Origin: Pseudorhizobium banfieldiae
GTDB taxonomy: Bacteria; Pseudomonadota; Alphaproteobacteria; Rhizobiales; Rhizobiaceae
DNA length: 64,000 bases
Reading direction: 5' to 3'
Assembly (NCBI RefSeq): GCF_000967425.1
Contig: NZ_FO082820.1
Location: 558,001 to 622,000, forward strand
Of this stretch, positions 27,426-55,714 are shown one piece after another. Position numbers and translations under genes: made by a program. The notes beneath the pieces are model-generated. The model saw only the letters and a list, made by a program, of their open reading frames with translations. It was not told the origin of the DNA and ran no database searches. Every line of letters begins with the position of its first letter. Position 1 is the first letter of the stretch.

Positions 27426-28562
27426 ATGACTTGGTTGAGGCAGCAGTCGCCTTATTTTGCGCGGCTGAGGACAGAAATTGCCGGATTGGGGGGAATGTTC
27501 AACGCGCATCTGCATCTGGATCGCGCTGGAACGCTTGATGATCGCTACATGGCGCATGCCGATCTTCGGATATTGTCAAATTCGCATATTTCTCTTCAGA
27601 AGAAGCATCACCTCATCAACGCGATCCATGCCGGACCTGCCTATCAGGCCGAGGATCTGGATGTCCGGGTGAATGAGGCGATAGATGTCATGGTCGCCGC
27701 CAATACCATTCGTGCCGACACCATGGTGGATGTGACCGACGACATCGTCAGCACGTCTGCGTTGGAAAAACTCAAGGAGATCAAGGACAGGCGAAGCGGG
27801 GAGATCGATCTTCGCATTGCTGCCTATTCGCCACTGGGATTTATCGACCGTGAGCCCGGCCGCTGGGCCGTTTTCGAGGAGGGCGCCAAAATCGCCGACT
27901 TCCTGGGCAGCTTGCCCGAGGCAGACGACAGGGTTGATTATCCGGATCACATCGGCTTCGAAGAGCATTGCGTGCGTATGCTTGATCTAGCCAGGCGGCT
28001 TGGTCTCATGCTCCATGTTCACACCGACCAGCGGAACGAGGCGAGCGAGCGGGGCACGGAGCGTCTGATCGAAATTGTGCGAAAGCATGGCGGGCCGGCT
28101 TCCCCCGACGGGACGCCCATGATTTGGGCTGTGCACATGATATCCCCGTCATCCTATGAGGACGATCGTCATGAACGCTTGGTGGAGGGATTGCTGGAAT
28201 GCAATATCGGTGTAATTTCCTGCCCGTCGGCGGCGATCGGCATGCGCCAGCTGCGGCCGCTCTATGCTCCGACACACAATTCGATACCGCGCATCCTCGA
28301 GCTTGCTGCCGCCGGCGTCCATATTCGGCTAGGGTCTGACAACGTTGCCGATATCTGTTCGCCGAGCACGACTGCTGATCTTGTCGACGAAGTCTTCATG
28401 CTATCGGCTGCAATCCGTTTTTATGAGATATCGGTCTTGGCGCGCCTGGCCTCGGGCCAAAAGCTCACCTCCGACGAATGCGATATCGTGAGGGAGCACC
28501 TGATGAAGAACGCTCAAGAGATTGCGAAGGTCATGAATGCAAGGGCTCAACCGTCTCTTTGA
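27426..28562 (+). CDS. Amidohydrolase-superfamily protein (cytosine-deaminase-like)
   Basis: This 378-residue protein has the metal-dependent hydrolase barrel: NAHLHLD near residues 26-32 (HxH), LGLMLHVHTDQRNE near residue 200 (metal His), IWAVHMISP, and HIRLGSDNVADI with the metal Asp near residue 305. These match cytosine deaminase/atrazine-hydrolase-type enzymes that deaminate or hydrolyse ring compounds. It overlaps the P450 gene by 26 bases, so the two are probably translated together. The substrate is unknown and its link with the lipid cluster is not clear. Confidence 0.85.
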   Translation: MTWLRQQSPYFARLRTEIAGLGGMFNAHLHLDRAGTLDDRYMAHADLRILSNSHISLQKKHHLINAIHAGPAYQAEDLDVRVNEAIDVMVAANTIRADTMVDVTDDIVSTSALEKLKEIKDRRSGEIDLRIAAYSPLGFIDREPGRWAVFEEGAKIADFLGSLPEADDRVDYPDHIGFEEHCVRMLDLARRLGLMLHVHTDQRNEASERGTERLIEIVRKHGGPASPDGTPMIWAVHMISPSSYEDDRHERLVEGLLECNIGVISCPSAAIGMRQLRPLYAPTHNSIPRILELAAAGVHIRLGSDNVADICSPSTTADLVDEVFMLSAAIRFYEISVLARLASGQKLTSDECDIVREHLMKNAQEIAKVMNARAQPSL

Positions 28563-29796
28563 GCGATTGCGCGGTCGCTCGGAAGCAGATGCTCTCCCGC
28601 TGGAAGCTCCGCTAGATCTGCTCGATCCATCATTCGTGTGCGATCCCTATACAATCTACAGACGATTGCGAACGCATGACCCCGTTCATCGTAGCCGCAA
28701 CGGCGGATGGATTCTGACGAGGCATCGCGATATCGTTTCGGCGCTTGGCGATCCGTCCCTCGGCAATGCTCCCTCACGTTACTCCGTGGTCGCGCCGCGC
28801 AATCGGGGCCGCTATGTCTGCGCAAATGTCGCGCAGAACATTCTGCCCTTCTTGGACAAGCCTGAGCATGTGAGGCCCCGCAGGATACTGTCTCGGGTCC
28901 TGAGCACGCACATGAAAGACAATCCTCTCGACATTGCACAAATTGCGCGCCAGTTGCTCGATCCGCAGCTTGCCCGCCGCCAAATGGACGCTATCGCCGA
29001 TTTCGGCACGCCGCTATCCGCTGAGGTCATGTGCCGAATGCTGGGCATCCCAGCACCTGATCGCGACCGAATGCTCGAATACAGCCACTACTTTTTCTTC
29101 CTGTTCGCGCCGATCCCCTCCGACCAAATCCGCCAGAAAGCCGACGAGGCCCTGACTGCGTTCAGAGGCTATTTTGCCGACCTGGTTCAGGAGCGACGGC
29201 GGAAGCCCCAGGCAGATCTTATCTCCCTTCTGCTAAGTGCAGAAGATGAGGGGGAACGCCTTTCAGACTGCCAGCTTGTCGATAACTGCATGCTTCTCTT
29301 TTCCGACGGCGTTGAAAATGTGGATGCGGGGATAGCCAATATACTTCTGGCTCTGGGCAGACATCCCGCGGAAATGAAACGCCTGAGAGACGCACCGGAG
29401 CTTATCGCAAACGCCGTTGCTGAAGGGCTGCGCTACGACTCCCCGGCCCAGTTGATCGCCAGGGTCGCCCGCGACGATGTCGAGATCGGCGGTCAGACGA
29501 TAAAGCGGGACAGCACGGTGTTCCTGGCGCTGGGATCGGCGAACCGGGATCCCGCGGTTTTTGCCGATCCTGATCGTTTCAATATCTCGCGGAACACCTC
29601 GCCGCTCCTCAGTTTCGGAAAAGGGGGGCATTCGTGCATCGGAGCGTCTCTGGTCCGCTCACAATCCGTGGAGGCCGTGCGGTCGCTACTGCAGACGACG
29701 ACCGTCGTCGAGGTCGACCAGGATGGTCTGGAATGGCTTCCGCGCGTCGGTCACCGCTGGTTGAAAACCCTACCGATCCGTCTTTTTCCTTCATGA
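28537..29796 (+). CDS. Cytochrome P450
   Basis: This 419-residue soluble bacterial-type P450 has EGLRYDSP (the ExxR motif) near residue 295 and the haem site FGKGGHSCIGASLVR near residue 365, with the axial Cys. The I helix reads SDGVENVDAG where most P450s have AGxETT, so the usual oxygen-activating Thr is replaced. It could hydroxylate a fatty acid or ring compound. Its stop codon abuts, on the opposite strand, the stop of the acyl-AMP ligase (TCATGA), so the two genes are tightly convergent. Confidence 0.93.
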   Translation: MQGLNRLFERLRGRSEADALPLEAPLDLLDPSFVCDPYTIYRRLRTHDPVHRSRNGGWILTRHRDIVSALGDPSLGNAPSRYSVVAPRNRGRYVCANVAQNILPFLDKPEHVRPRRILSRVLSTHMKDNPLDIAQIARQLLDPQLARRQMDAIADFGTPLSAEVMCRMLGIPAPDRDRMLEYSHYFFFLFAPIPSDQIRQKADEALTAFRGYFADLVQERRRKPQADLISLLLSAEDEGERLSDCQLVDNCMLLFSDGVENVDAGIANILLALGRHPAEMKRLRDAPELIANAVAEGLRYDSPAQLIARVARDDVEIGGQTIKRDSTVFLALGSANRDPAVFADPDRFNISRNTSPLLSFGKGGHSCIGASLVRSQSVEAVRSLLQTTTVVEVDQDGLEWLPRVGHRWLKTLPIRLFPS

Positions 29797-32649
29797 ACGC
29801 CAGTCGGGTGCGAGCGGGATAACGAGCCTGCGCAAGCCGGAACGCCCCGCACCGCCAAACCAGCAAATGCCGTCTTCCACGAGATCGATGTCCAGGAACA
29901 TTGGAAGGTTCCGCATCGGCACCTTGATCTGAAGTTCCATGATGGCAGTTGCCGATGGTTTTATTTCCTTTCCAAGGGGCAGTCTGGCATCCAATGCGTA
30001 GCCGTGGGATTTGTCGAGGCTACGCCAACGCGTTGCCAGAATGATCCCGCTTTTCTCGGTCGGCTCCCAAGGAACAGGGCTCGTATTGGTTATGGCGACC
30101 TTGATGGATCGGCGACTGCCCTGCCGCATGAATGTCGGCACTTGCGCGCGAATGGTCGAGGCGAAGCACCGCCGGTCCAGCCTCTTCATCGGCTGCAAGA
30201 GGCGCGAATTTGCCGAAGGTTGGGACAATTCTACCCTCTCAAACTCCTTCTCCAATTGCTGCGTAAAGTCGTCGACATAAGGCGGCTTATGCAGATCGTC
30301 GTGGTCGGCGGAGCTGTAAAATACCGAGATCGGGCCGGAATAATATTTCGCCCATGCCCGTTCCGGCTGGTCATTGAGATCGTAGGCACAGAACCATCCC
30401 CGCTTACCCCAAAACAAAGCAAGTTCGCCATCATAGGGTTTGGCAACGAAGCGATCCTGAAGGCACAGAAGCGAGACCGCATGCCCCGATGCCTTCAGCA
30501 TCGTGGCGATCTCGAAAGCGACGACGCCGCCTTGGCAAAATCCTCCGATCAGGTAGGGGCCTTCGGGCTGGATGCCAAGGATCTCCGAAACATAATAGCG
30601 CGCCAGCTTCTGGGTGTTCTCGTCACTTTTCACGCGTGTATTCGACAAGGAACTGAGAATGTAGAAGGGGCGATCGGGATCCAGTCCTTCGGAAAGGCAT
30701 TCGAACTGCCACATGCTCTGGCAGACCCAGAAGAAGGCGCGCTTTTTGCCAAACGTGTTTCTGCCCAGCACAAGCGAGTCGTCCCTGCGCTTGCCGCGCC
30801 AAGCCGCAGTCGCCAATCTTACGGCAGAATAAATTTCGGGTGCAAGTCGTCGCTTCGCGCTTTCGCAGGATACCCGCGCGCTTAGAACCTGTTCCATTTC
30901 ACGCAGCGTCGGCGCATCGAACAACGCTGAAACCGGAATGTCACGGCCAAAGCGTTCCTCCAGCAAGAGTGCCAGATTGGTTGCGCTGAGAGAGTCGCCG
31001 CCAAGGTCGAAAAAATTGTCTTCCATCCCGATGACCGGCACTTTCAACACGCTCGTCCACATCGCCGCCAGCGTTTTCGCTAAAGGAGACGCTGGAGCGA
31101 TGTGAGATCTGGCCTGGACCGTGGCACCAGCAAGTTCCGGCAATGCACGCCGATCAAGCTTTCCGCTCGGCACACGGGGAAGTTTGTCGAGGAAAATCAC
31201 CGTGCGGGGGATCTTGAAGTTTGCCGTGCGACCGCGCAAATGATCGATGATGTCGCTTGTCTCCAGCGTCGTCCTGTCACGCGGTACGACAGCAACTGCG
31301 ACTTCCTCGCCAAGCGAAGGGTGGGGCATGGCAAATGCGGCGGCCTCGGCGATGTTGGGGTGGTCGGAAAGGATCATGTCGATCTCTTGAGGCGATATTT
31401 TCTCGCCGCCGCGATTGATGATGTCCTTGAGCCGTCCCGTCAGGAACAAAAAGCCTTCGTCATCAATGAAGCCTTCATCGCCGCTGCAAAGCCAATCCCC
31501 CCTGAAAGTATCGCGGCTGACGGCTGCGTCTCCCTCATAGGCCGACATCACACTCGGTCCGCTTATCAGCACCTCGCCTCGTTTGCCGGCCGTGACTTCG
31601 TTCCCGAGTGAATCGCAGATCATGACCTGCGGTCCGAATGGAACTCCAACGGAGCCGGGCTTCAATCTCAGCCGATCGAGCGGCGTACTGGTAATCAGAC
31701 CGGCCGTCTCGGTCATGCCGAACATCGGGACGAGCCGGGTGCCAAATTTGTCCTCGAATTCCTCCTGCAATCTTGTCGGCAGCGGCTGCGAGACGGCGCG
31801 GATGAAGCGTAGATCTCGGAACAATCGCGCATCCTCGCCCGTGGCGCCATGGGCGAGAAGGTCGCGCAATACGGTCGGTACCGCTTGCGACCAAGTGGGA
31901 TGGAAGTGCTGGAGGCCTCGGAAGAAAGCCTCGGAGGAAATGCCCCCTGCAAAGGCCGTGGATCCGCCTGCGTAAAGGGGAGCCAGCAACAGGTCAACCA
32001 GTGCGCCAATATGGAACATGGGCATCATGTTCAGGCAGATATCTGCTGGCCCAAGTTCGATGGAGCGCGCCACGTTCCAAGCCGAACTGATCAGGTTTTC
32101 CGCGCTGAGCGGTACCCTCTTCGGCGTCCCGGTGGAGCCGGAGGTTTGGAGCACGAGCGCGGTCGAGGACCGCAAGCCGGCATCGGGTGTGTCTGCTGCA
32201 ACAGTCCGTCGCTGCGGTTTGTGGGGGGCCAGCCTGAAGGCGCCGGTGGGTCCTGCCAGGGGGACAAGCTGCAGGATTGGAATGTCTAGGGCGATAGCCG
32301 CCGCTGTCGCATCCGCCATGATTGTCGTGTCGGTGATGAGGTGAGTGACGCCCGATTGGACAAGTAAACGCTTTGTCTCGTCGAGCGCATAGGCGGGGTT
32401 CAGCGGCACCGAAGTTGCGAAAGACGCGACTGCGAGAATTGCCACTGCCGTTTCTGGCCGGTTTGGTAAAATCGTCGCGATCCTGGATCCCGGCTCGACG
32501 CCATGCTCGACGAAATGCGCGTGCACGGTATCGATAATCTGCAGCAGTTGGCTGACTGATGTGTCGGCTCTGTCGTGCGATCTGAGCGCAATCTTTTGCG
32601 GCGCAGTCTGACTGAGGTCTCTCAAGGGATCGAGGATGTCTTTGCGCAT
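29791..32649 (-). CDS. Acyl-AMP ligase - carrier protein - thioesterase - Ig-like fusion
   Basis: From the ATG at 32649 (MRKDILDPLRDLSQ) the protein has 952 residues in four parts. An adenylation domain (1 to about 510) has LQTSGSTGTPKRVPLS, FGMTE, CSGDEGF, GRLKDIINRGGEKI and the catalytic Lys in VPSGKLDRRAL. A carrier domain (about 530-605) has DNFFDLGGDSLSATNL with the phosphopantetheine Ser. A thioesterase-like domain (about 650-830) has GGFCQGGVVAFE, where Cys replaces the usual Ser nucleophile. An Ig-like end (about 840-952) has NTSPVPWEPT and DIDLVEDGICWF, as in domains attached to some glycosyltransferases. It probably activates an acid as adenylate, loads it on its own carrier and releases or transfers it. 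It ends a four-gene minus-strand operon. Confidence 0.9.
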   Translation of the reverse strand: MRKDILDPLRDLSQTAPQKIALRSHDRADTSVSQLLQIIDTVHAHFVEHGVEPGSRIATILPNRPETAVAILAVASFATSVPLNPAYALDETKRLLVQSGVTHLITDTTIMADATAAAIALDIPILQLVPLAGPTGAFRLAPHKPQRRTVAADTPDAGLRSSTALVLQTSGSTGTPKRVPLSAENLISSAWNVARSIELGPADICLNMMPMFHIGALVDLLLAPLYAGGSTAFAGGISSEAFFRGLQHFHPTWSQAVPTVLRDLLAHGATGEDARLFRDLRFIRAVSQPLPTRLQEEFEDKFGTRLVPMFGMTETAGLITSTPLDRLRLKPGSVGVPFGPQVMICDSLGNEVTAGKRGEVLISGPSVMSAYEGDAAVSRDTFRGDWLCSGDEGFIDDEGFLFLTGRLKDIINRGGEKISPQEIDMILSDHPNIAEAAAFAMPHPSLGEEVAVAVVPRDRTTLETSDIIDHLRGRTANFKIPRTVIFLDKLPRVPSGKLDRRALPELAGATVQARSHIAPASPLAKTLAAMWTSVLKVPVIGMEDNFFDLGGDSLSATNLALLLEERFGRDIPVSALFDAPTLREMEQVLSARVSCESAKRRLAPEIYSAVRLATAAWRGKRRDDSLVLGRNTFGKKRAFFWVCQSMWQFECLSEGLDPDRPFYILSSLSNTRVKSDENTQKLARYYVSEILGIQPEGPYLIGGFCQGGVVAFEIATMLKASGHAVSLLCLQDRFVAKPYDGELALFWGKRGWFCAYDLNDQPERAWAKYYSGPISVFYSSADHDDLHKPPYVDDFTQQLEKEFERVELSQPSANSRLLQPMKRLDRRCFASTIRAQVPTFMRQGSRRSIKVAITNTSPVPWEPTEKSGIILATRWRSLDKSHGYALDARLPLGKEIKPSATAIMELQIKVPMRNLPMFLDIDLVEDGICWFGGAGRSGLRRLVIPLAPDWRS

Positions 32650-32711
32650 CTTACTACCGCCCGATCCATCTGAATTCGTGTCGAGACATTGCAGACGCCA
32701 CGACCTGGGTG

Positions 32712-33521
32712 TCACGCATGGCTTGCTCCGATCCAGGGGCCTACAAAACGGATGGCGTCCGTTCTTGAACTCAGCGGCACGATTGCCTCCGGCACATTCT
32801 GAAACTTCACGTTCGTCGGTAGCTGATAGCCGTCGAATAGCCGGAAACCCGAAGGTACAGCGATCGTGGCGTCTGGACCGGGACCGCGTACCCATTCCAG
32901 CTGGCCCGTCGGCTGTACCATGATCTCGATCGACTGAGTTAATTCGCCTGATGTCATGGTGGCGCGGGCAGCCGTATCGCTTATCTCCTGCCAGATCACC
33001 CCATTGCGCGGCAGCAGCCCTGCTGGCGCCCAAAGGGCAGCGTCTATCCCCATGCGCTCGAACAGTACGGTCACAGAAGCGCCGCTGCTGCCAAAGGGAA
33101 ACATCTTCCAGCACCAAAACCGCAGACACGCACGTCCTTCGTACACGAGTGAGTTTCCCGAAAACAATGCGAGGCTGTTCTTGGAATAATAGCGCGAAAG
33201 CGAGCCGTGAGGGGCCGCAAGGATCTGATAGGTCGTGACTTCAGCAGGAGGTCGATGGCCTATCGATATCTTAGCGGTGCTCTTCACTTCCACCACGGTT
33301 CGGAGCGGCGTACCCGGCCGTATCGCAAAGAGGAAGAACCGACGTGCGGCAACCGGCAGGCCGGCCACCATCGTCTCATCGAAGCTCTCGTCATGCCAGG
33401 GAGTCTTGCTGGCCAGAGCCGCCCAGGTGGAATCGTCTTCGTGCAGTTGCTTCAGCCGCTGCCATGCCAAGATGGCCAAGGCGAGCAAGGGGAAGATAAG
33501 TAGAGACAGGAGCATCAGCAT
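32712..33521 (-). CDS. Membrane-anchored protein, DUF6544/DUF6920-like
   Basis: This 269-residue protein starts with a hydrophobic helix (MLMLLSLLIFPLLALAILAW). The rest is soluble and β-rich, with ARRFFLFAIRPGTPL, NSLVYEGRACLRFW and LPTNVKFQNVPE. The pattern resembles the DUF6544/DUF6920 group, which I assign only loosely. It overlaps the lipid-kinase gene by 7 bases and precedes the acyl-AMP ligase gene, so it belongs to the lipid operon. It could be a periplasmic-side binding or chaperone protein for the lipid, but that is a guess. Confidence 0.65.
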   Translation of the reverse strand: MLMLLSLLIFPLLALAILAWQRLKQLHEDDSTWAALASKTPWHDESFDETMVAGLPVAARRFFLFAIRPGTPLRTVVEVKSTAKISIGHRPPAEVTTYQILAAPHGSLSRYYSKNSLALFSGNSLVYEGRACLRFWCWKMFPFGSSGASVTVLFERMGIDAALWAPAGLLPRNGVIWQEISDTAARATMTSGELTQSIEIMVQPTGQLEWVRGPGPDATIAVPSGFRLFDGYQLPTNVKFQNVPEAIVPLSSRTDAIRFVGPWIGASHA

Positions 33522-34438
33522 CGCAGAGCCAATGCCTGCGGCAGGATTTCATAGGTGGCCGGCAGGCGGCCGGGCGCCTCGCCGTCCAGATCCAGTAGCA
33601 CCGGCTCGCTCTGCCCGTCCAGGGGCTCGACCCTGATGCGTCGCCCGCGCCGGATCGAAATGGCCGGATGATCACGATGTCCTCCGGAATAGACGAGGAG
33701 CAGATTGCGAAGCAGAGCCAGTTTCGATGTATGCTGCAGGGTGACGATGTCAAAAAGCCCGTCATCGAATTCTGCATCGGGAGCGATCTGCATCCCGCCG
33801 CCGAAATAGCGGCCATTGGCAACGGCAACGAGCACAATCGGAGCTGTGACCGCCGGATCATCATCCACCATCATGCCTATCCTTTGAGAGCGGAATGCAG
33901 CTAATGCGCCAATGGTCGCTGCGAGAAACCGCGCCTTGCGGGGCAGGAAACGAGAATGCGTCGTATTGACGATGCGATCGATCTGGCCCGACACGCCAAA
34001 GCTCCCGATGTTGGCGAAGAGCCGCGACTTTTGATTGCCGTCGTCATCGAAATAGATGACGCGACCCAGATCAATCCTGCGGGTAGCCCCCGAGACGATC
34101 CGATCTATGCTGTCCATGCCAGTGGAAAGGCTGCGAACGAAATCCGAACCAGTCCCGAGCGAGACCACGGCGAGCGATACGTGTGTAGACATCTTCCCGT
34201 CCGCATCGCAAAAGCCGTTGACCACTTCGTTCAGGGTTCCGTCGCCCCCGACGGAAATGACCAGGTCCGCACCCGTCCGAATCGCCTCGCGGGTGAGGAT
34301 CGACGCATGACCAGGTGCTGCCGTCTCCGCGGAAGCAAACGGACCGATGTGCTCTGCCAGACGCTTGGCAAGCCTTGGCCATCTTTTCTTGACGCGGCCG
34401 CCGCCCGCCTTCGGGTTGATGACGACAAATACGCTCAT
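33515..34438 (-). CDS. Diacylglycerol-kinase-family lipid kinase
   Basis: This 307-residue protein is of the DagK/YegS/BmrU family: NPKAGGGRVKKRW at the amino end, SVGGDGTLNEVVNGF near residues 63-77 (the nucleotide site) and LGTGSDFVRS near residue 93, then a β-sandwich domain with PDAEFDDGLFDIVTL. These enzymes phosphorylate the hydroxyl of a lipid such as diacylglycerol, or ceramide in Caulobacter. In this cluster it could phosphorylate a glycerolipid or the special lipid product. Cytoplasmic, peripheral to the inner membrane. Confidence 0.92.
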   Translation of the reverse strand: MSVFVVINPKAGGGRVKKRWPRLAKRLAEHIGPFASAETAAPGHASILTREAIRTGADLVISVGGDGTLNEVVNGFCDADGKMSTHVSLAVVSLGTGSDFVRSLSTGMDSIDRIVSGATRRIDLGRVIYFDDDGNQKSRLFANIGSFGVSGQIDRIVNTTHSRFLPRKARFLAATIGALAAFRSQRIGMMVDDDPAVTAPIVLVAVANGRYFGGGMQIAPDAEFDDGLFDIVTLQHTSKLALLRNLLLVYSGGHRDHPAISIRRGRRIRVEPLDGQSEPVLLDLDGEAPGRLPATYEILPQALALRC

Positions 34439-34499
34439 CGCATGCGACCGCTATCGTGTGAGCCTGCGATGTCAATCAGGGCACCCAGTCGTTCGTCGG

Positions 34500-35810: not shown

Positions 35811-35936
35811 GCGGGAGGTATTCAACTGTTGGTAAACCCATCATGGCTGTAGCCGATGGGATGTCCCAAAGCTAGATGTTTGTTATGGCGTTTTCCGCAT
35901 ACGGCGGGAAGAATGATTCAGCATAAAGAAACGTGA
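35811..35936. promoter_or_regulatory. Divergent promoter region, GT4 and Wzm
   Basis: About 125 bases between two divergent operons of the lipid cluster. It must hold promoters for both directions. It is AT-richer near 35870-35935. I cannot place -35/-10 boxes with confidence. Confidence 0.4.
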
Positions 35937-39391: not shown

Positions 39392-39457
39392 CGGCTCAAG
39401 TACACTCGATCGCTTCCCAGTCGGCGAAGCGTGCCAAGCATTCATCAGAGGGCTTCG

Positions 39458-40552: not shown

Positions 40553-40572
40553 TTTTCACGGACTGAAGCAGC

Positions 40573-41295: not shown

Positions 41296-41395
41296 TAGCC
41301 AATGCAGCAGGGCGATTGCAGTGACTATGCCACGGCAGGCTGTCTGTGAACGGCCCTTACAAAATTCACGTGTCAAGTGAACTGGACGCCGGCGT

Positions 41396-47848: not shown

Positions 47849-48133
47849 ATGATGACTGAATCGGATATTGGTACCACGTCGGACCTGATGCAGGAGGTAA
47901 TCGACATCGTTGCAGCAGAGGCGATGATCGATCGCGACAAGCTCTCGGCCACGGCGCGCCTTGACGAACTAGATATCCAATCCGCCGACTACGTCATGAT
48001 CCTAATGGCAGTGGAAGAGCGATTCGGCGTCTACATCTCCATCGACAGCGGGTTCACCGAGGCCGAAACGGTCGGTGATCTCGTTCGTGCCGTTGCGGCG
48101 AAAATCGCCGAAGGGTCCGGAGCTGGCGCGTGA
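47849..48133 (+). CDS. Acyl carrier protein
   Basis: This 94-residue acidic helical protein has the four-helix ACP pattern, with the phosphopantetheine Ser in LDELDIQSADYVMILMAVE (near residue 48). The motif DIQS replaces the usual DSLD, typical of specialised ACPs outside fatty-acid synthesis. The first two ATG codons are both possible; the second has better spacing from CAGGAAAG. Its stop overlaps the ketosynthase start by 4 bases. It is likely the acyl donor for the local ketosynthase and acyltransferases. Confidence 0.92.
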   Translation: MMTESDIGTTSDLMQEVIDIVAAEAMIDRDKLSATARLDELDIQSADYVMILMAVEERFGVYISIDSGFTEAETVGDLVRAVAAKIAEGSGAGA

Positions 48134-49353
48134 ACCGTGTCGTCGTGACGGGCATGGGCGCGGTGTCCGCATGCGGGCTCGGCGTCGACCGACTCTGGGA
48201 GGCGGCAAAGAATGGAATATCGGGCGTCTCGCCTGTGAATTTCCTCCCGTCGGAGCGCCAACTTGTCAGGCAGGCTGCAACTCTGTCCGACGAGGTCGTC
48301 GAGGACGTGTGGAAGGGTGCCAAGCCTCGCATGCAGGATCGCGTCACTGCCATCGCCTTGGCGGCGGCGCAGGAGGCGGTGACGCAGTCCGCTCTTGCTG
48401 CCGATGATTTTGGCGCCGATTGCGGCGTCGTCGTGGGTTCGGGCTTTGGCGGCGCGGAAACGACCACCAGAAACATGACGGATTTCATCCGCGATCCGGG
48501 GGGGCGGCTGGATCCGATGAGCATTCCGAAGATCATGACGAATTCACCGGCGTCCTGGATTAGCATGCATTTCGGGACTCGCGGCGCGACGATGTGCATA
48601 TCGACTGCCTGTGCATCGGCCACCCAGTCGATCGGCATTGCGGCGCAGATGATACGCCAGGGCATGCTCAGCCGCTGCATAGCCGGCGGCAGCGAGGCCT
48701 TGATCGTGCCGAGCGTATTTCGAGCGTGGGAACTACTGAGGGTGATGACGGCGGGCAAGTGTCGTCCCTTCTCCGCAGACCGGGACGGCATGGTGCTGGG
48801 CGAGGGGGCTGGGATCGTCGTGCTGGAATCGCTTCGTTCCGCCACGGACCGCGGTGCCGAAATACTGGCCGAAGTCGCCGGCTACGGTTCGACCAGCGAT
48901 GCCAGCGACCTGTTGAGGCCCGACCCGCGAGGCGCGCACGACAGCATGGTGGCGGCGATAAGGGATGCGGCCCTCGACACGTCCGACATCGCCTATGTGA
49001 ACGCCCACGGCACCGGCACGGTGGCCAACGAGGTTTCCGAAAGCGAAGCATTGCGGAACCTGTTTGGAAACCGGCTCGGCGACGTCCTCGTGTCTTCCAC
49101 CAAGCCTATCCATGGCCATGCGCTGGGTGCTGCCGGCGCCATAGAGTTTATCGTCACGGTGAAGGCGTTGCGCGAGCGGCTTGCGCCTCCGACAATCAAC
49201 TTTACGAGCATTGACCCGAAGCTTGGCATAGACCCTGTGGCCAATATAGCCCGGGCATTTGATGGCGCGGCCGATGCCTGCCTTTCAAATTCCTTTGCCT
49301 TTGGCGGCATAAATGCCTCGCTACTGGTAAAACGTTTCGCCGCCCCGGTTTGA
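48130..49353 (+). CDS. β-Ketoacyl-ACP synthase (FabF-like)
   Basis: This 407-residue condensing enzyme starts with a GTG that overlaps the ACP stop (GTGA). It has the KAS II triad: Cys in STACASATQSIG near residue 160, His in NAHGTGT near residue 297, and His in HGHALGAAGAIEF near residue 330. It should elongate acyl chains carried on the neighbouring ACP. Its position with ACP and MaoC genes, away from the primary fab genes, indicates a special fatty acid. Confidence 0.95.
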   Translation: MNRVVVTGMGAVSACGLGVDRLWEAAKNGISGVSPVNFLPSERQLVRQAATLSDEVVEDVWKGAKPRMQDRVTAIALAAAQEAVTQSALAADDFGADCGVVVGSGFGGAETTTRNMTDFIRDPGGRLDPMSIPKIMTNSPASWISMHFGTRGATMCISTACASATQSIGIAAQMIRQGMLSRCIAGGSEALIVPSVFRAWELLRVMTAGKCRPFSADRDGMVLGEGAGIVVLESLRSATDRGAEILAEVAGYGSTSDASDLLRPDPRGAHDSMVAAIRDAALDTSDIAYVNAHGTGTVANEVSESEALRNLFGNRLGDVLVSSTKPIHGHALGAAGAIEFIVTVKALRERLAPPTINFTSIDPKLGIDPVANIARAFDGAADACLSNSFAFGGINASLLVKRFAAPV

Positions 49354-49358
49354 GCGCA

Positions 49359-50156
49359 ATGATCCCCATAGCGCCTCGTCGCGCGCGAATCGACGAAGAT
49401 GCGGCGCGCAGCATGTCCATTGTCTTGGCCCAGACAATCGGATTGGACGTCTCAGGGGTTTCGGCAACAATACCCTTCATCTATCCCTTGCGTATTGTCG
49501 CCGAGACGGCTTCCGCGCAGATCCGGCACCATGTCGACGTGACCAACGGCCAGATCGCCATTCATGAGTCGCAGTCGATCAGATGCGAGCGCGTCCTCGT
49601 GGCCGCCGACGACCTGACGGCCGCAGGGGAACTCAAGGCCGATGACGCCATGGTGAGCATCTCCTTGAACGCCGAAACGGTTGGAGGCGGACCGGCATTC
49701 TCTTCGGCTACGAGGCTTCGGGTGGTGCCTGCGGCGGCATTGATCGGCGAGACTGCCACGGCCAAGATACGCCCGACCGTAAACGCCGTCGCACCAGTTA
49801 TTGTGTCGCAACGGGTGACATCCGATCTCGTCTTGGCCTATGCGCAGGCCGCAGGCGACTTTAACCCCCTACACACCGACATACAGTTCGTCCGTTCCCT
49901 TGAAATACCGGAACGTGTCGTGCCTGGAATGCTGCTGGCCGGGTTGGCTGAGCCGGTAGTTGCGCATCTTGGCTTGGGACATTTGCTGGAGCTCAGGACC
50001 CGTTTTCTGGCGCCGTGTTTCGTCGGCGAACGCATCAGCATCACGGTTTTGGACGTGCAAGCCATTCCGCAGGCCACGCGTAGGCTCCGCATTGCCATTG
50101 CACTGCATGAAGGACCTCTCGTCTGCATCAGTGATGTTAGCTTGAGGGATGACTAG
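49359..50156 (+). CDS. MaoC-type hydratase/dehydratase
   Basis: The ATG at 49359 (MIPIAPRRARIDEDAAR) lies just after the ketosynthase stop. The 265 residues hold two hot-dog domains; the second (from about residue 145) has the catalytic YAQAAGDFNPLHTDIQF with Asp and His, then ERVVPGMLLAGL. MaoC enzymes hydrate enoyl thioesters or dehydrate 3-hydroxyacyl thioesters. Together with the ACP and ketosynthase this makes an elongation mini-set, but no ketoreductase or enoyl reductase is nearby, so those steps must be shared with primary metabolism. Its stop codon shares CTAG with the convergent small gene. Confidence 0.9.
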   Translation: MIPIAPRRARIDEDAARSMSIVLAQTIGLDVSGVSATIPFIYPLRIVAETASAQIRHHVDVTNGQIAIHESQSIRCERVLVAADDLTAAGELKADDAMVSISLNAETVGGGPAFSSATRLRVVPAAALIGETATAKIRPTVNAVAPVIVSQRVTSDLVLAYAQAAGDFNPLHTDIQFVRSLEIPERVVPGMLLAGLAEPVVAHLGLGHLLELRTRFLAPCFVGERISITVLDVQAIPQATRRLRIAIALHEGPLVCISDVSLRDD

Positions 50157-50560
50157 GCCTTGGAGCGCCTTGCGATCTGCGCCCCGCTCTTGTTGTTAAG
50201 GTAGATGATGGCCCCCAACAGTGCGACGGCGACGGTTGTCGTCAGAATGCTCGGCAAAATTGCTGTCATTGCTCCGTTGATCTTGACGTTGTGAAAGATG
50301 GCATAGCCAAACAGCAACGGCACCGTGATGCCGATCAAAGGTATCCGTCCAAAAAGCTGGATAAAGTTGAACTTTACGCCGTCGCGCCCGAGTAATCTGA
50401 CCGTGACGCCGAAGAAAAGCCCGAAAAAATTGATCACGGCAAGGATCAGGACTGAGGCCAGGACGAAGCAGAAAGCGATAAGCCAGAGCGTCGGGTGACG
50501 ACGTCTGGAGAGATTGGCAGGCGCCTGCTCACCGAAAGACTCAAACATTAGAGATATCAT
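50153..50560 (-). CDS. Small membrane protein, unknown
   Basis: This 135-residue protein has three hydrophobic helices: about 27-52 (LIAFCFVLASVLILAVINFF), 70-90 (RIPLIGITVPLLFGYAIF) and 100-122 (ILPSILTTTVAVALLGAI). I recognise no family. The Met at 50560 or at 50548 could start it. It lies between the MaoC gene and two glycosyltransferases and may belong to the lipid cluster, for example as an accessory transport or transferase subunit. Confidence 0.6.
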   Translation of the reverse strand: MISLMFESFGEQAPANLSRRRHPTLWLIAFCFVLASVLILAVINFFGLFFGVTVRLLGRDGVKFNFIQLFGRIPLIGITVPLLFGYAIFHNVKINGAMTAILPSILTTTVAVALLGAIIYLNNKSGAQIARRSKA

Positions 50561-50603
50561 GTAGCTATCACTTTTATCGCTGAGCGCCTCACTGCACTAG
50601 CTC

Positions 50604-51470
50604 TTACCAGTGACCAGCAAACGCATTCAAGGTGATTTCGTCGTTCTGGCCCGACTTGTTTATCCCGCTGGTCAGCGAGGCGCGTAGCGAACTTGGTGTC
50701 TCAAGGGGTAGTTCATCGGCGACGACCACCAGACGCGGTATACCGGCCCGTGCGAGATGACCCGATATCCAGACATCGTCAACCCAGCGCGCCTCGGCAG
50801 GTGCGTCGGAAAAATCGTGGACGTCTTCTCCCGGCGCACCCGGCGGCAGCAGATAGCCCCAAGTTCCGAAAAGCACGTCCACCGGCGTGGGCGTATCTAC
50901 GCCCGTCGCGAATATATGGAGAAGGTCAGGAAAGCGCACGCCTTGTGCAAGCTGAACGCCGCGGAACCCCAAGGCAGCTCCGGGAGCAAGGCGATGGGCT
51001 GCAAGCAGCGTTTCGATGAACCGGTGGGGATAGATGACGTCATCGTCGACCACAATCAGGACAGAGCCGGCCTCCAGCTTGAGTGTCGGGAGCAGTTTCG
51101 TGGCGGGCCCTTCATCGTCGCAGCGAACCACATCGATGCCTGCTGGCAAATTCATCGTTTCCAGCTTGGGATATGGTTCACCGCGTCGAGTTGCCCGTGG
51201 AAGTGCAAGTACGATCCGGTCCGCCGGCTCTGACTGATCGAGAAGACCGCGCAGCACGGCCGCGAGCGTCTTTGCGCGAGCGGGGACGGTCGTCAGCGTC
51301 ACCACGACGCGCTCGTTTCGGGGCGTGGGTGGTTTCCGGCGCGGCTGCCGCAGGTGAAGCCTTGCGGCCCGCCAGATTGTCGTCGCCAGCGTGGCGGGGC
51401 CGATATTTCTGAACCGAGATATGGCTCGCTGGGCTTCGATGGTAAACCGGTTGCTGGTGTGAGCATCCAT
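50604..51470 (-). CDS. GT-A-type glycosyltransferase
   Basis: This 288-residue protein has the pattern of small nucleotide-sugar transferases: VVVTLTTVPARAKTLAAVLRG near residue 55, DEGPATKLLPTL, and the metal-binding VVDDDVIYPHRFIE near residue 142 (DDD), followed by GFRGVQL and, near the end, ADELPLE. It has no clear membrane helix and should act at the cytoplasmic face. Its start lies one base after the GT32-like stop, so the two are in one operon. Sugar and linkage unknown. Confidence 0.82.
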   Translation of the reverse strand: MDAHTSNRFTIEAQRAISRFRNIGPATLATTIWRAARLHLRQPRRKPPTPRNERVVVTLTTVPARAKTLAAVLRGLLDQSEPADRIVLALPRATRRGEPYPKLETMNLPAGIDVVRCDDEGPATKLLPTLKLEAGSVLIVVDDDVIYPHRFIETLLAAHRLAPGAALGFRGVQLAQGVRFPDLLHIFATGVDTPTPVDVLFGTWGYLLPPGAPGEDVHDFSDAPAEARWVDDVWISGHLARAGIPRLVVVADELPLETPSSLRASLTSGINKSGQNDEITLNAFAGHW

Positions 51471-51471
51471 G

Positions 51472-52263
51472 TTACGAGACCTGGCGGAAGCATCCGCCGA
51501 ACCCTGCCTTGGTCAGCGTGGAATCGAGATAAGAAGCGGGAAACGGATTTGGCCAGCGATCGCGCTCGATCCATCGACGAGCGATGGATCGGCGCGCCGG
51601 GGACGATTTCCAGCTGCCGAAGAAGTGATGGCGCGCGTGAATATTGGCATTCAGTGGCCAGATATCCGGGTAATGCCGCGGCGGCATCAACACGATCTGT
51701 GCAAGAGCTGCGATGTCGGTGCGGGGCTTCTCAAAGAAAAGCCTGGTCAGCATGTGCGGTCCCGTCAGGTCCTCGATCTCGGATCGGTCGATCCTCGGTC
51801 GCATGCGCACTAACTCGATCGATCTTTCGATTGCCTCCCAGAGAAACGAGTGGCCGCTCTCGGCCGCGAAGATACAATTGGCGATCTGAAGGGGCTTTGG
51901 ATAGGAGAGTTCTCTTTGCCGTCTCGATGAAACATGCGCCTCGATCGAGAAAATAGCCGGAGCGATCGACAATAATGGCTGCATCGGTCGAACGCATTCC
52001 ATATCTATATCGGCATAAATGCCGCCGTCGCGGTAGATCACGGCATAACGGAAGAAATCTGCGCGCATGACGGGATATGGAAAGCTGAGGTAGTCGTCCA
52101 GAAACTGCGGTGCGACCTCGGCCACCACCTCGGTGCACTCGTCGTCGTCAAATAGGCTGTGGACGAAATCGGGGTTGTTTCCTGTCCAGCTCTGCTGCAG
52201 CCTTCGCGCCTCCGAAGGCAGGCTCTTCGAGCGCCATGTCTGGCTAACGCGCTGGGGTATCAA
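51472..52263 (-). CDS. GT32-like glycosyltransferase (DXD sugar-binding type)
   Basis: The TTG at 52263 follows AGGA by eight bases and gives IPQRVSQTWRSKSLP, the normal start of this family; a longer frame starts at 52296. The core MRADFFRYAVIYRDGGIYADIDMEC carries the conserved Arg/Asp pair and the DID form of the DXD motif, as in OCH1/capsule-type GT32 enzymes. About 263 residues. It should add one sugar to the growing glycan, in the same operon as the GT-A gene. Confidence 0.85.
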   Translation of the reverse strand: MIPQRVSQTWRSKSLPSEARRLQQSWTGNNPDFVHSLFDDDECTEVVAEVAPQFLDDYLSFPYPVMRADFFRYAVIYRDGGIYADIDMECVRPMQPLLSIAPAIFSIEAHVSSRRQRELSYPKPLQIANCIFAAESGHSFLWEAIERSIELVRMRPRIDRSEIEDLTGPHMLTRLFFEKPRTDIAALAQIVLMPPRHYPDIWPLNANIHARHHFFGSWKSSPARRSIARRWIERDRWPNPFPASYLDSTLTKAGFGGCFRQVS

Positions 52264-52296
52264 GATTAACGTCCTGCAAGGGCTAGAGATTGGCAA

Positions 52297-52471
52297 TTGC
52301 CGTCATCTTGCACGAATTTGCCGCAAGGCAAAGCATCGGAGTTTGAACAGCCTTGCCAATCCAGCCTGTACAAGTCTAGAAACAGGATAAGGTTAAGGGG
52401 GACGCCTTTTCCCGTATAACATCAACTCCAATGCGGGCGTCGGGTCTTGGCGCTGCCGAGAACGCTCGATA
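52297..52471. promoter_or_regulatory. Divergent promoter region, GT32 and phosphatidyltransferase operons
   Basis: About 175 bases between two divergent transcription units of the lipid cluster. No operator or terminator was recognised. Confidence 0.35.
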
Positions 52472-53248
52472 ATGTTCGATGCCTTCCAACGTTTGATCAT
52501 GGCAGACGCTGCCACCACGCGCTTCCTGATCATTTTCATTGGCTTCATGACTGCTATCTATGCGGCGAACGCCGTCTACGTTCTGGTTGGGCCGAAGCCG
52601 GAACCCAAGAAGAGTAGAGGCGAGAGCCCTGGTCCATCCACGATCCAGCGTACTGCCAAAACCGCTATCAGCCGCTTCGCCGGCTGGGTCGCATCGCAAA
52701 GCATTACGCCGAACCAGATCACCCTCGTCGGTCTCGTGCTGGTCTTCATGAACTGTGCGCTGTTTGCCTATCACAAGAACACCTTCCTGTTTGGCACCAG
52801 CCTCATCGTCGCCTATCTCTTTGACACCCTGGATGGCGTGGTTGCACGTGCCCAGGGGACGTCGACACGCTTCGGTGGTTATCTGGATGCGGTCGTCGAT
52901 CGCTACCAGGAGATTGCAACCTACCTGGTTATCGGCTGGGTCCTCGATCAATGGCTGGTGGCTTTCCTGGTCATTACGGGATCAATGCTTACCAGCTATA
53001 ACAAAGCCCGCGCCGCCATCGAGATTCCGGTCGATAACAAGGGTTGGCCGGATCTTTTGGCCAAGCCAGCTCGATTGTTTTTCCTTTGTCTCGCACTTAT
53101 CGGCGATGCAAATCTACCATGGCTTTTGCCAGGCATGCTTTGGGCGCTGGCCTTCATGACACATTTCACCGCCCTGCAGCGCATCATTCGGGCCTATCTG
53201 CTCATCCGACAAGCCGAAACCCTCGGCAGCCTCGAGCGTGAGGGCTGA
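52472..53248 (+). CDS. CDP-alcohol phosphatidyltransferase (probable phosphatidylinositol-phosphate synthase)
   Basis: This 258-residue membrane enzyme has an amino-terminal helix (TRFLIIFIGFMTAIYAANAV) and then the family core. The full catalytic motif D-x2-DG-x2-AR-x8-G-x3-D-x3-D is present as FDTLDGVVARAQG followed by RFGGYLDAVVDR near residue 130. These enzymes replace CMP of CDP-diacylglycerol with an alcohol. With an inositol-phosphate synthase in the same cluster and a PgpA-type phosphatase 3 bases downstream, inositol phosphate is the most likely alcohol, giving phosphatidylinositol phosphate. Choice of alcohol is inference; glycerol 3-phosphate is the alternative. Confidence 0.9.
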   Translation: MFDAFQRLIMADAATTRFLIIFIGFMTAIYAANAVYVLVGPKPEPKKSRGESPGPSTIQRTAKTAISRFAGWVASQSITPNQITLVGLVLVFMNCALFAYHKNTFLFGTSLIVAYLFDTLDGVVARAQGTSTRFGGYLDAVVDRYQEIATYLVIGWVLDQWLVAFLVITGSMLTSYNKARAAIEIPVDNKGWPDLLAKPARLFFLCLALIGDANLPWLLPGMLWALAFMTHFTALQRIIRAYLLIRQAETLGSLEREG

Positions 53249-53251
53249 GCG

Positions 53252-53761
53252 ATGGCGGAGGTAGCAGCGCCATACGCACCGGTAAAGCCTTCCTTTTCCG
53301 CGATGGTCTCGGCGCCACATCAGATGCTGGCCATGGTGTTTGGCTTCGGCCTTTTCCGTGTGTGGCCGGGGACATGGGGCACCCTTGCCGGAATAGGCCT
53401 ATTCGTCGCGTTACAACCGATCCCGCTTGCCGCCCGGGTGTTTGTCTATGTGGTGCTCATCGTCGCCAGCGCCTGGGCCTGTCAGAAAACCGGCGAGGAT
53501 CTGAGTTCCCCCGACCATAATGCGATGGTCATAGACGAGACGCTCGGCATGAGCCTAACCCTCGAATTCGTCGCCCCTGGAATGGCGATCGGAGCTGTCT
53601 CGTTCTTGCTTTTCCGTTTCTTCGACGCCTACAAGCCGTGGCCCATCGATTTCGTCGACCGGAAATGGAAAGGCGGATTTTTTGTCATTCTCGATGATCT
53701 TCTCGCCGCGCTGTACACGATCCTCGCGGTTCGCTTTCTCGTTGCACCGCTTCTTGCTTGA
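53252..53761 (+). CDS. PgpA-family phospholipid phosphatase
   Basis: This 169-residue inner-membrane protein has PgpA motifs: GFGLFRVWPGTWGTLAG near residue 32, HNAMVIDETLGM near residue 88, FRFFDAYKPWPIDFVDRKW near residue 118 and FFVILDDLLAAL near residue 142. PgpA removes the phosphate from phosphatidylglycerophosphate. In Bacteroidetes a PgpA-type enzyme turns phosphatidylinositol phosphate into phosphatidylinositol, which fits the context here. It follows the phosphatidyltransferase by 3 bases. Confidence 0.92.
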   Translation: MAEVAAPYAPVKPSFSAMVSAPHQMLAMVFGFGLFRVWPGTWGTLAGIGLFVALQPIPLAARVFVYVVLIVASAWACQKTGEDLSSPDHNAMVIDETLGMSLTLEFVAPGMAIGAVSFLLFRFFDAYKPWPIDFVDRKWKGGFFVILDDLLAALYTILAVRFLVAPLLA

Positions 53762-53766
53762 TCGAC

Positions 53767-54507
53767 ATGGAAGCGCGTGAGGGTTCGTCCAAGGAAATAG
53801 AAGTATACCTTTCGGTCGATGTAGAACCGGACTGCCCGCCCTATCTGTGGACCTGGCGCGGCATCGAGGAAGGGATGCCGAAGCTGATCGACCTGTTCAC
53901 GGAGGAGAAAGTGCTTGCAACTTTCTTTGTTACCGGGGACACGGCCTCTCGCTATCCGCAGATGGTAGAATGCCTTGTCGAGAACGGGCACGAGATCGGC
54001 TGCCATGGCTTTAGCCATCATCCGTTCAGAACCTTCGATGAGGAGCGCGCAATGTTTGAGGTGGCCTACACGAATTCGCTGCTGCGCAAGTTCGCTCCGG
54101 TCACGTCCTTTCGCGCACCTTACCTCCAGCTGCCTGAAAGGTTTCTCCCCTTGCTAGCGGCAGATGGCATCAGGACTGACTCTTCGCGCGCCAAGTACAA
54201 ATTCTGCGACAAACCGAATACGTCTGCACCGACCGTGCAGCGTCTTCCCGTTTCCGCGACGTCAAGTATCCTACGATTGCCGTCCTTCGTACGAGACCCA
54301 TTGTTGAGGTGGTTGCGGAGCCCTGTTGTTTTATTCGTGCATCCTTGGGAATTCGTTGATCTGACGCGACATCCGATCCGCGTCGATTGTCGATTTCGGA
54401 CGGGAGATCCTGCGCTTCGGGATCTTCGCGATGTTATCCGTGTTTTGCGGGATGCCGGGGCGGCTTTTCGGCTGGTGCAAGACTTCAGGGAGGCGAAGGG
54501 GAACTGA
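53767..54507 (+). CDS. Polysaccharide deacetylase (NodB-type)
   Basis: From the ATG at 53767 the protein has 246 residues with the NodB fold: the metal and base site LSVDVEPDCPPY near residue 15, IGCHGFSHHPF near residue 79 (HxxxH), SFRAPYLQLPE near residue 116 and LFVHPWEF near residue 192. It removes an acetyl group from an N-acetyl sugar. There is no signal peptide, so it acts in the cytoplasm, probably on a lipid-linked sugar made by the GT4 enzyme that is convergent with it. It follows the PgpA-type gene by 5 bases. Confidence 0.9.
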   Translation: MEAREGSSKEIEVYLSVDVEPDCPPYLWTWRGIEEGMPKLIDLFTEEKVLATFFVTGDTASRYPQMVECLVENGHEIGCHGFSHHPFRTFDEERAMFEVAYTNSLLRKFAPVTSFRAPYLQLPERFLPLLAADGIRTDSSRAKYKFCDKPNTSAPTVQRLPVSATSSILRLPSFVRDPLLRWLRSPVVLFVHPWEFVDLTRHPIRVDCRFRTGDPALRDLRDVIRVLRDAGAAFRLVQDFREAKGN

Positions 54508-55714
54508 ACCCGTGACTCTCGCGGTAAAGCGCGATGTGTTCCGCCGCCAGCGCCTGCCAATCGTAACGGGCGAGACCAGGATCGGCCATGGCAAGCTTTT
54601 GCAGCCTCTGCGGGTCTGCCGCGAGCGCCGTAATCTCGCCTGCTAACTCCATGTCGTTCTTTACAAGAATCCCCGAAACTCCGCTATGAACAAAGTCCGC
54701 GATGCCGGTCCCTTCCATGGCAAGCACCGGTAGGCCGGCTGCTCTTGCTTCCAGTGCGGCGATGCAAAACGCTTCCTTGAGAGACGGCATCACAAAAAGA
54801 GAGCTTTCTGCGTAAAGCGATCTCAGCTCCTCGCGCGAAAGCCACCCCGCCAAAAGGATCCGGTCCTGAAGTCCTGTTTTTGCGATACGCTGCTCAAGTC
54901 GAGCGCGCAGCGGCCCATCTCCGGCGATCGTCAGCGTAAGGTCGATACGTCTGCTGGAAGCTTCCGCGGCACTTTCAGCGAAGGCATCGACGAGTGCGAT
55001 GCACCGCTTGCGCGGCTGTAGTCGCAAGGCCGAAACAAGCCGCAGTTGCCCCCCGCCCTGCGCGCGCCGCAGTCCTTCAGCGTGCCAGAGGCCGTGCTCG
55101 AAGCCGTTCGGTAGAACCCGCACTGGGACTTTCGGCATCGCTGTGCGTATCTGGCCGGCGACGAGATTACTGACCGCGGAGAGAATTAATCTGCCCTTGC
55201 ACCAGCCGGTCGCTCGCTCGATGACAGACAGCAGGAGCGGAAGCTTCCGCATGACCGAGTGAAAGGTGACCACGATCGGCAAGTCGAGGAACCGTGCCGC
55301 CGGCACGGCCGCAAGGCACAAGGGTGCGACGATGCTGGGATGAATGTGAATGGTATCATACCTACCCTCAGCAAAACTGTCTCGGAGCTTTCCGACCAGT
55401 TGTGGCGACGCCGCAAGCTCGACTATGGGTAGTCTGAAGCAATCGATGCGGTCTATCGGCACTCCGTCGATCTCAGGCGGACCAGGAAAGCTTGTTACGA
55501 TCACGGGCTCGATGCCCTGTTGCTGCAAGTTCTTGGCCAGGGCAAGGAGATGCATCTCGATCCCGCCTTGGCGGGGCAGACACCAATCGCTGACCAAGGC
55601 AACTCGTTTTGGCCCAGAGCGGGTTAAATCATGCTGACGGTTGGGGTGAGGGCGCTGCTGTAGGATGACTAGCACCTGAACTGAGGGTGAACGTGTTATA
55701 AGGCCGCCTTCCAC
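54485..55714 (-). CDS. Glycosyltransferase family 4 (PIG-A/PimA-like class)
   Basis: This 409-residue GT-B enzyme has RVALVSDWCLPRQGGIEMHLLA (from about residue 37, so a later start such as the region before RSGPK is possible), IVVTFHSVM, VRVLPNGFEHG and the E-x7-E donor site KEAFCIAALEARAAG. The GG[IV]E.H start is shared by lipid-acting GT4 enzymes such as PIG-A, which puts GlcNAc on phosphatidylinositol. It overlaps the deacetylase gene end by 23 bases on the opposite strand. Action on inositol lipid is inference from the cluster. Confidence 0.88.
   Translation of the reverse strand: MEGGLITRSPSVQVLVILQQRPHPNRQHDLTRSGPKRVALVSDWCLPRQGGIEMHLLALAKNLQQQGIEPVIVTSFPGPPEIDGVPIDRIDCFRLPIVELAASPQLVGKLRDSFAEGRYDTIHIHPSIVAPLCLAAVPAARFLDLPIVVTFHSVMRKLPLLLSVIERATGWCKGRLILSAVSNLVAGQIRTAMPKVPVRVLPNGFEHGLWHAEGLRRAQGGGQLRLVSALRLQPRKRCIALVDAFAESAAEASSRRIDLTLTIAGDGPLRARLEQRIAKTGLQDRILLAGWLSREELRSLYAESSLFVMPSLKEAFCIAALEARAAGLPVLAMEGTGIADFVHSGVSGILVKNDMELAGEITALAADPQRLQKLAMADPGLARYDWQALAAEHIALYRESHGFSSPSPP

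Follow-up and report, generated by a model that had tools for sequence, protein, structure and literature searches.

Lipids built on phosphatidylinositol can be compared with two well-known pathways, the actinobacterial route to phosphatidylinositol, phosphatidylinositol mannosides (PIM) and lipoarabinomannan, and the first steps of eukaryotic glycosylphosphatidylinositol (GPI) synthesis, in which PIG-A is followed by PIG-L, a deacetylase of the LmbE-like type. For Bacteroides, PMC9246714 describes a myo-inositol-1(3)-phosphate synthase (MIPS), a phosphatidylinositol-phosphate (PIP) synthase with the motif DX2DGX2AR...GX3DX3D and a PgpA-type protein, the likely PIP phosphatase, as required for phosphatidylinositol. 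The inositol-phosphate-binding residues of MtPIPS are given in PMC4634129 as S132, K135, R155, and R195. Here we analyzed a window of 64,000 nucleotides from Pseudorhizobium banfieldiae (contig NZ_FO082820.1, positions 558,001 to 622,000), in which genes of this kind lie within a conserved block of 21 genes at positions 33,515-55,714. We consider it probable that this block serves the synthesis of phosphatidylinositol, its glycosylation, and the export of the glycolipid through a second LptB/LptF/LptG-like transporter dedicated to it. This reading is based on gene content, motifs, the inositol-phosphate-binding residues, conservation as a unit, the second LptF/LptG pair, and a genome search in which no serine palmitoyltransferase (SPT) was found. 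The block is a new combination of known modules, namely phosphatidylinositol synthesis of the Bacteroidetes/actinobacterial kind, BshA/PimA-like glycosylation, and Lpt-like export, and searches of the open-licence literature turned up no paper on an alphaproteobacterial cluster of this kind.

A conserved block of 21 genes

An initial annotation of this DNA had drawn a single co-inherited unit from 27,426 to 55,714 for the synthesis and export of a lipoglycan based on phosphatidylinositol. Pfam and NCBIfam profile scans recovered every gene type it had listed, each in its place, and the motifs that were checked were intact. Genome contigs were scanned with a MIPS alignment, and among the best 80 of 588 relatives a single locus had the arrangement of the window, contig PAPF01000041.1 of a Phyllobacteriaceae metagenome-assembled genome (L137; the continued reading along this contig is termed L240). 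Twenty of the 21 genes are collinear with the window and have the same orientation, with protein identities of 30-66%. The common order is lipid kinase, GT4-family glycosyltransferase, Wzm, Wzt1, Wzt2, MIPS, LptB, LptF, LptG, PlsC, acyl carrier protein (ACP), ketosynthase, MaoC, a 135-residue protein, a GT2-like protein, a DXD-type glycosyltransferase, PIP synthase, PgpA, deacetylase, and a further GT4. The sole block gene lacking a counterpart encodes a 1050-residue double-GT4 protein, whose only match in the L137 genome is the other GT4. With 20 of its 21 genes found again in unchanged order and orientation in a second genome, the gene block is more than a chance assembly.

The conserved unit, 33,515-55,714, is narrower than originally drawn. 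The genes of the left 6 kb were not found beside the block in L137, the one relative of this type that was read, and a unit comprising the whole of 27,426-55,714 was therefore rejected. The remark that the operons meet with almost no spacer applies to the convergent gene ends, which overlap by 4-26 bases, and not to the divergent pairs, which are spaced 111-175 bases apart when measured by open reading frame (ORF) starts. Apart from short matches, a repeat scan gave a single repeat, of 103 bases, between the two Wzt genes. The genome comprises 4.58 Mb in three contigs, of which the second (322,264 bases) has a 13.3-kb stretch in common with a plasmid of the arsenite-oxidizing bacterium NT-25, at 99.8% identity.

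Predicted phosphatidylinositol synthesis

Three genes of the block were assigned to the formation of phosphatidylinositol:

39431..40552, plus strand: MIPS (PF01658; TIGR03450, 400.8 bits)
52472..53248, plus strand: predicted PIP synthase, a CDP-alcohol phosphotransferase (PF01066; motif; residues)
53252..53761, plus strand: PgpA-type phosphatase, likely the PIP phosphatase (PF04608)

MIPS was the single match of its kind found in the genome and aligned over residues 7-366 with Ino1 of M. tuberculosis, the closest MIPS structure (360 bits). The motif DX2DGX2AR...GX3DX3D was present in the window PIP synthase and in all 28 rows scoring at least 158 bits, the window included. In an alignment to chain 6h5a, residues S175, K178, R201, and R237 of the window protein correspond to S132, K135, R155, and R195 of MtPIPS, and all four are kept in 20 of 20 synthases of cluster types I and III. 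The 52472-53248 protein is likely a PIP synthase, an activity predicted from its sequence. When the genome was searched with an SPT/BioF-like query, only 5-aminolevulinate synthase was obtained (667 bits, above the cut-off). As this was the only SPT relative found, the lipid anchor is likely a glycerolipid, phosphatidylinositol, rather than an inositol ceramide.

Transport genes

Two putative transporters are encoded next to these genes:

35937..36758, plus strand: Wzm-like ABC-2 permease (PF01061; 56% identity in L137)
36679..38058, plus strand: Wzt-like ATPase 1 with Wzt_C domain (PF00005 and PF14524; 48% identity in L137)
38027..39391, plus strand: Wzt-like ATPase 2 with Wzt_C domain (PF00005 and PF14524; 48% identity in L137)
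40573..41295, plus strand: LptB-like ATPase (TIGR04406 LPS_export_lptB, 267.8 bits, above the cut-off of 240; 42% identity in L137)
41396..42514, plus strand: LptF-like permease (PF03739; TIGR04407, 90 bits; 30% identity in L137)
42514..43752, plus strand: LptG-like permease with periplasmic beta domain (PF03739)

The LptG-like protein has a predicted LptG fold that includes the periplasmic beta domain, and a Pseudaminobacter protein shares 60% identity with it. As the genome holds another LptF/LptG pair outside the cluster, the pair in the block is a second set.

Glycan and acyl-chain genes

The five glycosyltransferases of the initial annotation were all present as ORFs, one of them weakly recognized (50604-51470) and one with two GT4 domains. 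Together with a deacetylase and a small protein they form the following group:

34500..35825, minus strand: GT4-family glycosyltransferase (PF00534; 51% identity in L137)
43727..46879, minus strand: double-GT4 protein of 1050 residues (PF00534 twice)
50153..50560, minus strand: hydrophobic protein of 135 residues (no family at E 0.001; chance-level Pfam match only)
50604..51470, minus strand: GT2-like putative glycosyltransferase, cluster marker (EpsD model, E 1.8e-4)
51472..52296, minus strand: DXD-type glycosyltransferase (PF04488; 52% identity in L137)
53758..54507, plus strand: NodB/PF01522-type de-N-acetylase (HX3H and RxPY motifs; 56% identity in L240, adjoining PgpA)
54485..55714, minus strand: BshA/PimA-like GT4 at the right block end (44% identity in L240)

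By single sequence, the best PDB match of the right-border GT4 was PimA (57 bits); its family profile placed BshA-type chains first (112.6 bits, compared to 103.7 bits for PimA), which weakened an identification as PimA. BshA transfers N-acetylglucosamine (GlcNAc), and a deacetylase acts next. A BshA-like enzyme thus suits the adjacent PF01522 protein. The right-border GT4 likely performs the first glycosylation, and the de-N-acetylase likely acts on a GlcNAc residue, this sugar being our working hypothesis.

Homologs of the 135-residue protein were found in the L137 and G071 clusters and in no others among the loci profile-searched, and it has two database relatives besides its own copy. A GtrA-like identity (compare BT_1524) was tried and rejected, as shallow alignments gave no profile similarity; the structure model was too poor for use (predicted local distance difference test, pLDDT, 51.9).

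Five further genes of the block are predicted to concern acyl chains and phosphatidic acid:

33515..34438, minus strand: YegS/DgkB-type lipid (diacylglycerol) kinase at the left block end (PF00781 and PF19279; TIGR00147 above cut-off)
46879..47688, minus strand: PlsC-type acyltransferase, HX4E variant (PF01553)
47849..48133, plus strand: ACP (PF00550)
48130..49353, plus strand: FabF-like ketosynthase (PF00109/PF02801; Cys-His-His intact by active-site alignment)
49350..50156, plus strand: MaoC-like dehydratase (PF01575; GDFNPLH motif)

The lipid kinase has a GGDGT motif, its best solved relative is DgkB (82 bits), and its counterpart in L137 is 45% identical. The HX4E form of PlsC was present in 8/8 aligned rows and the carrier serine of the ACP in 15/15, the window included in both cases. 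Lipid kinase, PlsC, ketosynthase, ACP, and MaoC may together constitute a dedicated acyl supply.

Proposed pathway

MIPS would convert glucose-6-phosphate to inositol-1-phosphate, which the PIP synthase would join with CDP-diacylglycerol to PIP, and the PgpA-type phosphatase would then dephosphorylate PIP to phosphatidylinositol. ACP, ketosynthase, MaoC, PlsC, and lipid kinase would furnish the anchor with phosphatidic acid and with an acyl chain of a special kind. The BshA/PimA-like GT4 and the de-N-acetylase would add the first sugar, likely GlcNAc converted to glucosamine (GlcN), and the remaining glycosyltransferases would lengthen the glycan. Of the two transporters, the LptB/F/G-like proteins would pull the glycolipid out of the inner membrane, whose crossing by the longer glycan would be the task of Wzm/Wzt1/Wzt2. 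The order of these steps, the sugars, the acyl chain, the substrate of either transporter, and the final location are what we infer from the genes. The support extends to a unit for an inositol-containing lipid; a lipoglycan in the sense of a polymer, as had been proposed initially, would follow from the Wzm/Wzt genes only.

Distribution of related clusters

Among 297 genomes of the order, 67 had a MIPS match; 17 scored at least 470 bits, the next score being 417. PIP synthase reached at least 138 bits in 18 of the 297 (next score 54). Seventeen genomes carry both the synthase and the MIPS clade, and the 18th synthase genome (G149) is a fragmented one of 71% completeness. In a MIPS tree of 60 rows, the 18 grouped synthase-associated rows fell on one side of a 100/100 branch, with the window and L137 paired at 99/98, and MIPS and synthase distances correlated with r 0.79 (the accompanying P values ignore phylogeny).

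We read the type I loci of 14 of the 16 other genomes with the cluster MIPS (G230 and G330 were left out), with one additional stretch for G072, using locus profiles iterated on the same regions that were then searched. PIP synthase and PgpA were present in 14/14 of these loci, CdsA-like and short-chain dehydrogenase/reductase (SDR) genes in 13/14, LptF together with LptG in 9/14, and a ketosynthase of at least 600 bits in 6/14; in G114 the ketosynthase was found only inside a 2209-residue frame. As controls served 15 MIPS loci outside the cluster clade and outside family f20, 13 from the order and 2 from the same genus, two of them on short contigs (8.0 and 14.7 kb). PgpA, LptF, and LptG were found in 0/15 of them, and one (G041) gave a weak synthase-like match of 72 bits, the only such match. 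Two loci whose MIPS-like proteins belong to a remote class (G253 contig 110 and G152, 222-223 bits) were left out of this count and had no synthase, PgpA, or LptF/G match either. With matches in 67 genomes and control loci of this kind, MIPS alone was rejected as a cluster marker.

A type II variant, family f20, occurs in 12 genomes. All eight loci read contained MIPS, a synthase-like protein, GT4, deacetylase, and the GT2-like protein, and 7/8 contained PgpA and LptF/G. Two type II clusters encode the synthase-like domain within longer frames, of 606 residues in G242 (L119:1055-2875) and 631 residues in G329 (L120:16489-18384). The GT2-like protein marks 20 genomes at 84 bits or more, and 20/20 are carriers of either type; 7 further genomes, one a carrier, scored 56 bits or less. 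The view that the inositol genes belong with the cluster was thus examined in both directions, from the MIPS clade and from the GT2-like protein, and was not refuted in either.

In a class-level search, 4/385 genomes passed E 1e-15. In two of these, G490 and G373, MIPS is neighbored by SDR, CdsA-like, and FGGY-kinase genes, and G373 also has LptF/LptG. Stappia sediminis, Aestuariivirga litoralis, and Shimia are among the named sources of MIPS-clade loci in the best 80 of 588 relatives. Related clusters are patchy, spread through the order and into Rhodobacterales; the inositol core is therefore not unique to one strain. The synthase was found in 1/57 genomes of the window's genus (E 1e-20), and such patchy spread suggests that the trait is acquired or lost as a whole.

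Two further observations concern inositol lipid genes elsewhere. A Sphingomonas parapaucimobilis plasmid (NZ_CP155750.1, L244, 13141-15808) carries a CDP-alcohol phosphatidyltransferase, MIPS, and an NTP transferase consecutively, a gene row reminiscent of the alternative route through CDP-inositol that PMC9246714 proposes for Prevotella. DUF4833 is fused to a PIP-synthase-like protein in Spirosoma and lies beside it in Hymenobacter (L245 8986-10275; L246 9441-10268); it recurs in alphaproteobacterial clusters of types I and II and is a candidate inositol-lipid protein.

Evidence against the proposed pathway and alternative readings

Several results weigh against the proposed pathway. MIPS lies below its curated cut-off (TIGR03450, 400.8 versus 638 bits), as does PgpA (102.5 versus 226 bits). 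PIP synthase misses two (NF045883, 87.8 versus 170 bits; also 117 versus 180) and was therefore called from its residues and context, not from a model. No PgpA other than that of the cluster was found in the genome, so that phosphatidylglycerol synthesis either uses another phosphatase or depends on a cluster PgpA that does both jobs; the protein may thus serve phosphatidylglycerol synthesis too. The LptF-like permease reached 90 bits with TIGR04407 (cut-off 230), and the Lpt-like proteins were therefore graded as working like LptB2FG and not as a lipopolysaccharide (LPS) exporter. LptC, LptA, and LptD were not recognized among the block proteins in Pfam scans; partners encoded elsewhere may be shared. 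Of the type I loci, two (G071, G221) have LptF with no or weak LptG, and three have neither in the stretches read. Type II MIPS falls outside the cluster clade in the tree, and 8/8 type II synthase-like proteins deviate at two of the four residues, with R at the K135 position and A at the R195 position. These proteins may therefore work differently, possibly with an acceptor other than inositol phosphate. In G490 and G373, 40 kb were read and showed no PgpA, and none was seen in the Rhodobacterales-type loci L140, L141, L143, and L145-L148, where most stretches end less than 10 kb from MIPS; in the wider family PgpA is thus not universal. Finally, the substrates of glycosyltransferases cannot be revealed by sequence, and the product, likely a lipid, is predicted from the genes alone.

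The exporter with Wzm and two Wzt proteins, which the initial annotation had counted as part of the system, is present in the window and in L137 and was seen only in this window-type variant among the loci read. The type I and II loci read keep the inositol genes but gave no Wzm match, and in two Erythrobacteraceae loci (L184, L185) MIPS lies near Wzt2-, GT_a-, and double-GT-like genes with no PIP synthase match in the stretch read. This would be expected if an ordinary Wzm/Wzt polysaccharide export operon merely adjoined a small phosphatidylinositol-lipid module and no single product were made. We regard such a pair of neighboring systems as unlikely, since both gene sets are consecutive and in the same order in L137 and Wzt2 immediately precedes MIPS in both genomes.

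Formation of an inositol phosphoceramide-type sphingolipid, as in Bacteroides, instead of a phosphatidylinositol glycolipid is suggested by some relatives: an SPT/BioF-like enzyme occurs in 8/14 type I loci of the order (542-680 bits; the one member scanned was under the cut-offs of every model matched), and a PAP2 protein of type II scores 125.6 bits with NF052609, the model for phosphoinositol dihydroceramide synthase, below the cut-off of 480. For the window we judge this improbable, because Pfam scans revealed neither SPT-like nor PAP2 genes in the block and the genome search gave no alpha-oxoamine synthase except 5-aminolevulinate synthase. Slightly less probable still is that inositol decorates the core or polymer of a variant LPS or of a lipid A-like glycolipid. 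In its favor, the LptB-like protein scores above the cut-off of the LPS exporter model and ketosynthase, ACP, and MaoC resemble acyl-chain tailoring sets; against it, no lpx-type gene was recognized in the block by Pfam scans, the product of PIP synthase is a lipid and not a sugar nucleotide, and the genome has another LptF/G pair.

Genes adjoining the block

The following genes adjoin the block on the left, outside the conserved unit:

27426..33521: amidohydrolase-like protein, P450, ligase-ACP-thioesterase, and DUF6544
28537-29796, plus strand: P450 (profile search)
29791-33129, minus strand: frame for AMP-ligase, carrier, and thioesterase (profile search)
32712-33521: DUF6544, overlapped by the ligase frame

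As the 1112-residue ligase frame overlaps DUF6544, its GTG start is probably too early. In the flanks of L137 that were read, none of these genes was directly beside the block; one flank has a weak P450 match (30%) at a distance of about 16 kb, and the other a weak match to the ligase (27%). The ligase/carrier/thioesterase protein, the P450, and the amidohydrolase-like protein (27426-33129) possibly form a separate small biosynthetic set.

Discussion

If phosphatidylinositol synthesis, glycosylation, and Lpt-like export are indeed united in this block, the bacterium would possess an unexpected extra surface lipid for an organism of its kind, perhaps as a surface adaptation, and for the inositol lipids of Proteobacteria there would be a pathway at the level of genes and a strain in which to test it. 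Extraction of the LptB2FG type would not be limited to LPS, as the anchor handled by a paralogous set would be another one, and inositol lipid synthesis of the Bacteroidetes type would be joined to an outer-membrane export route. The three cluster types allow one to ask which parts of the lipid the transporter needs, such as ceramide or diacylglycerol and GlcN or other sugars. Only tentatively, and with more doubt than conviction, do we suggest that the product could be a second, LPS-independent surface lipoglycan on phosphatidylinositol beside the ordinary Lpt set, with a GPI-like glucosaminyl-phosphatidylinositol head made by GT4 and de-N-acetylase, an acyl chain tailored for it alone, and its own extractor of the LptB2FG type, the module being scattered through the Alphaproteobacteria.

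With the inositol lipid cluster of Bacteroidetes (BT_1522-BT_1526, as described in PMC9246714) the block shares MIPS, a PIP synthase with DX2DGX2AR...GX3DX3D, and a PgpA-type PIP phosphatase. Unlike that cluster, it lacks a PAP2 phosphatidylinositol-dihydroceramide synthase (no PAP2 match), no SPT was found in the genome, and it adds glycosyltransferases, acyl-chain genes, and Lpt-like and Wzm/Wzt exporters. The alphaproteobacterial types I and II share DUF4833 with the Bacteroidota clusters, and type II also has a PAP2 protein. The block resembles the first steps of eukaryotic GPI synthesis in having a GT4 and a de-N-acetylase beside phosphatidylinositol synthesis, but its deacetylase is of PF01522 and not of the PIG-L type, and the matches listed for its glycosyltransferase include no PIG-A domain. 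The actinobacterial phosphatidylinositol/PIM pathway is similar in its two-step phosphatidylinositol synthesis (described in PMC4634129), in M. tuberculosis Ino1 as the nearest MIPS structure, and in PimA among the nearest GT4 structures; it differs from the window in the latter's Gram-negative setting, Lpt-like exporter, and de-N-acetylase. Compared with the LptB2FG extractor of LPS, the window set is the second in its genome, sits with inositol-lipid genes, and has an LptF below the curated cut-off, whereas its LptB-like protein is recognized by TIGR04406 and its LptG-like protein has the predicted LptG fold with the periplasmic beta domain.

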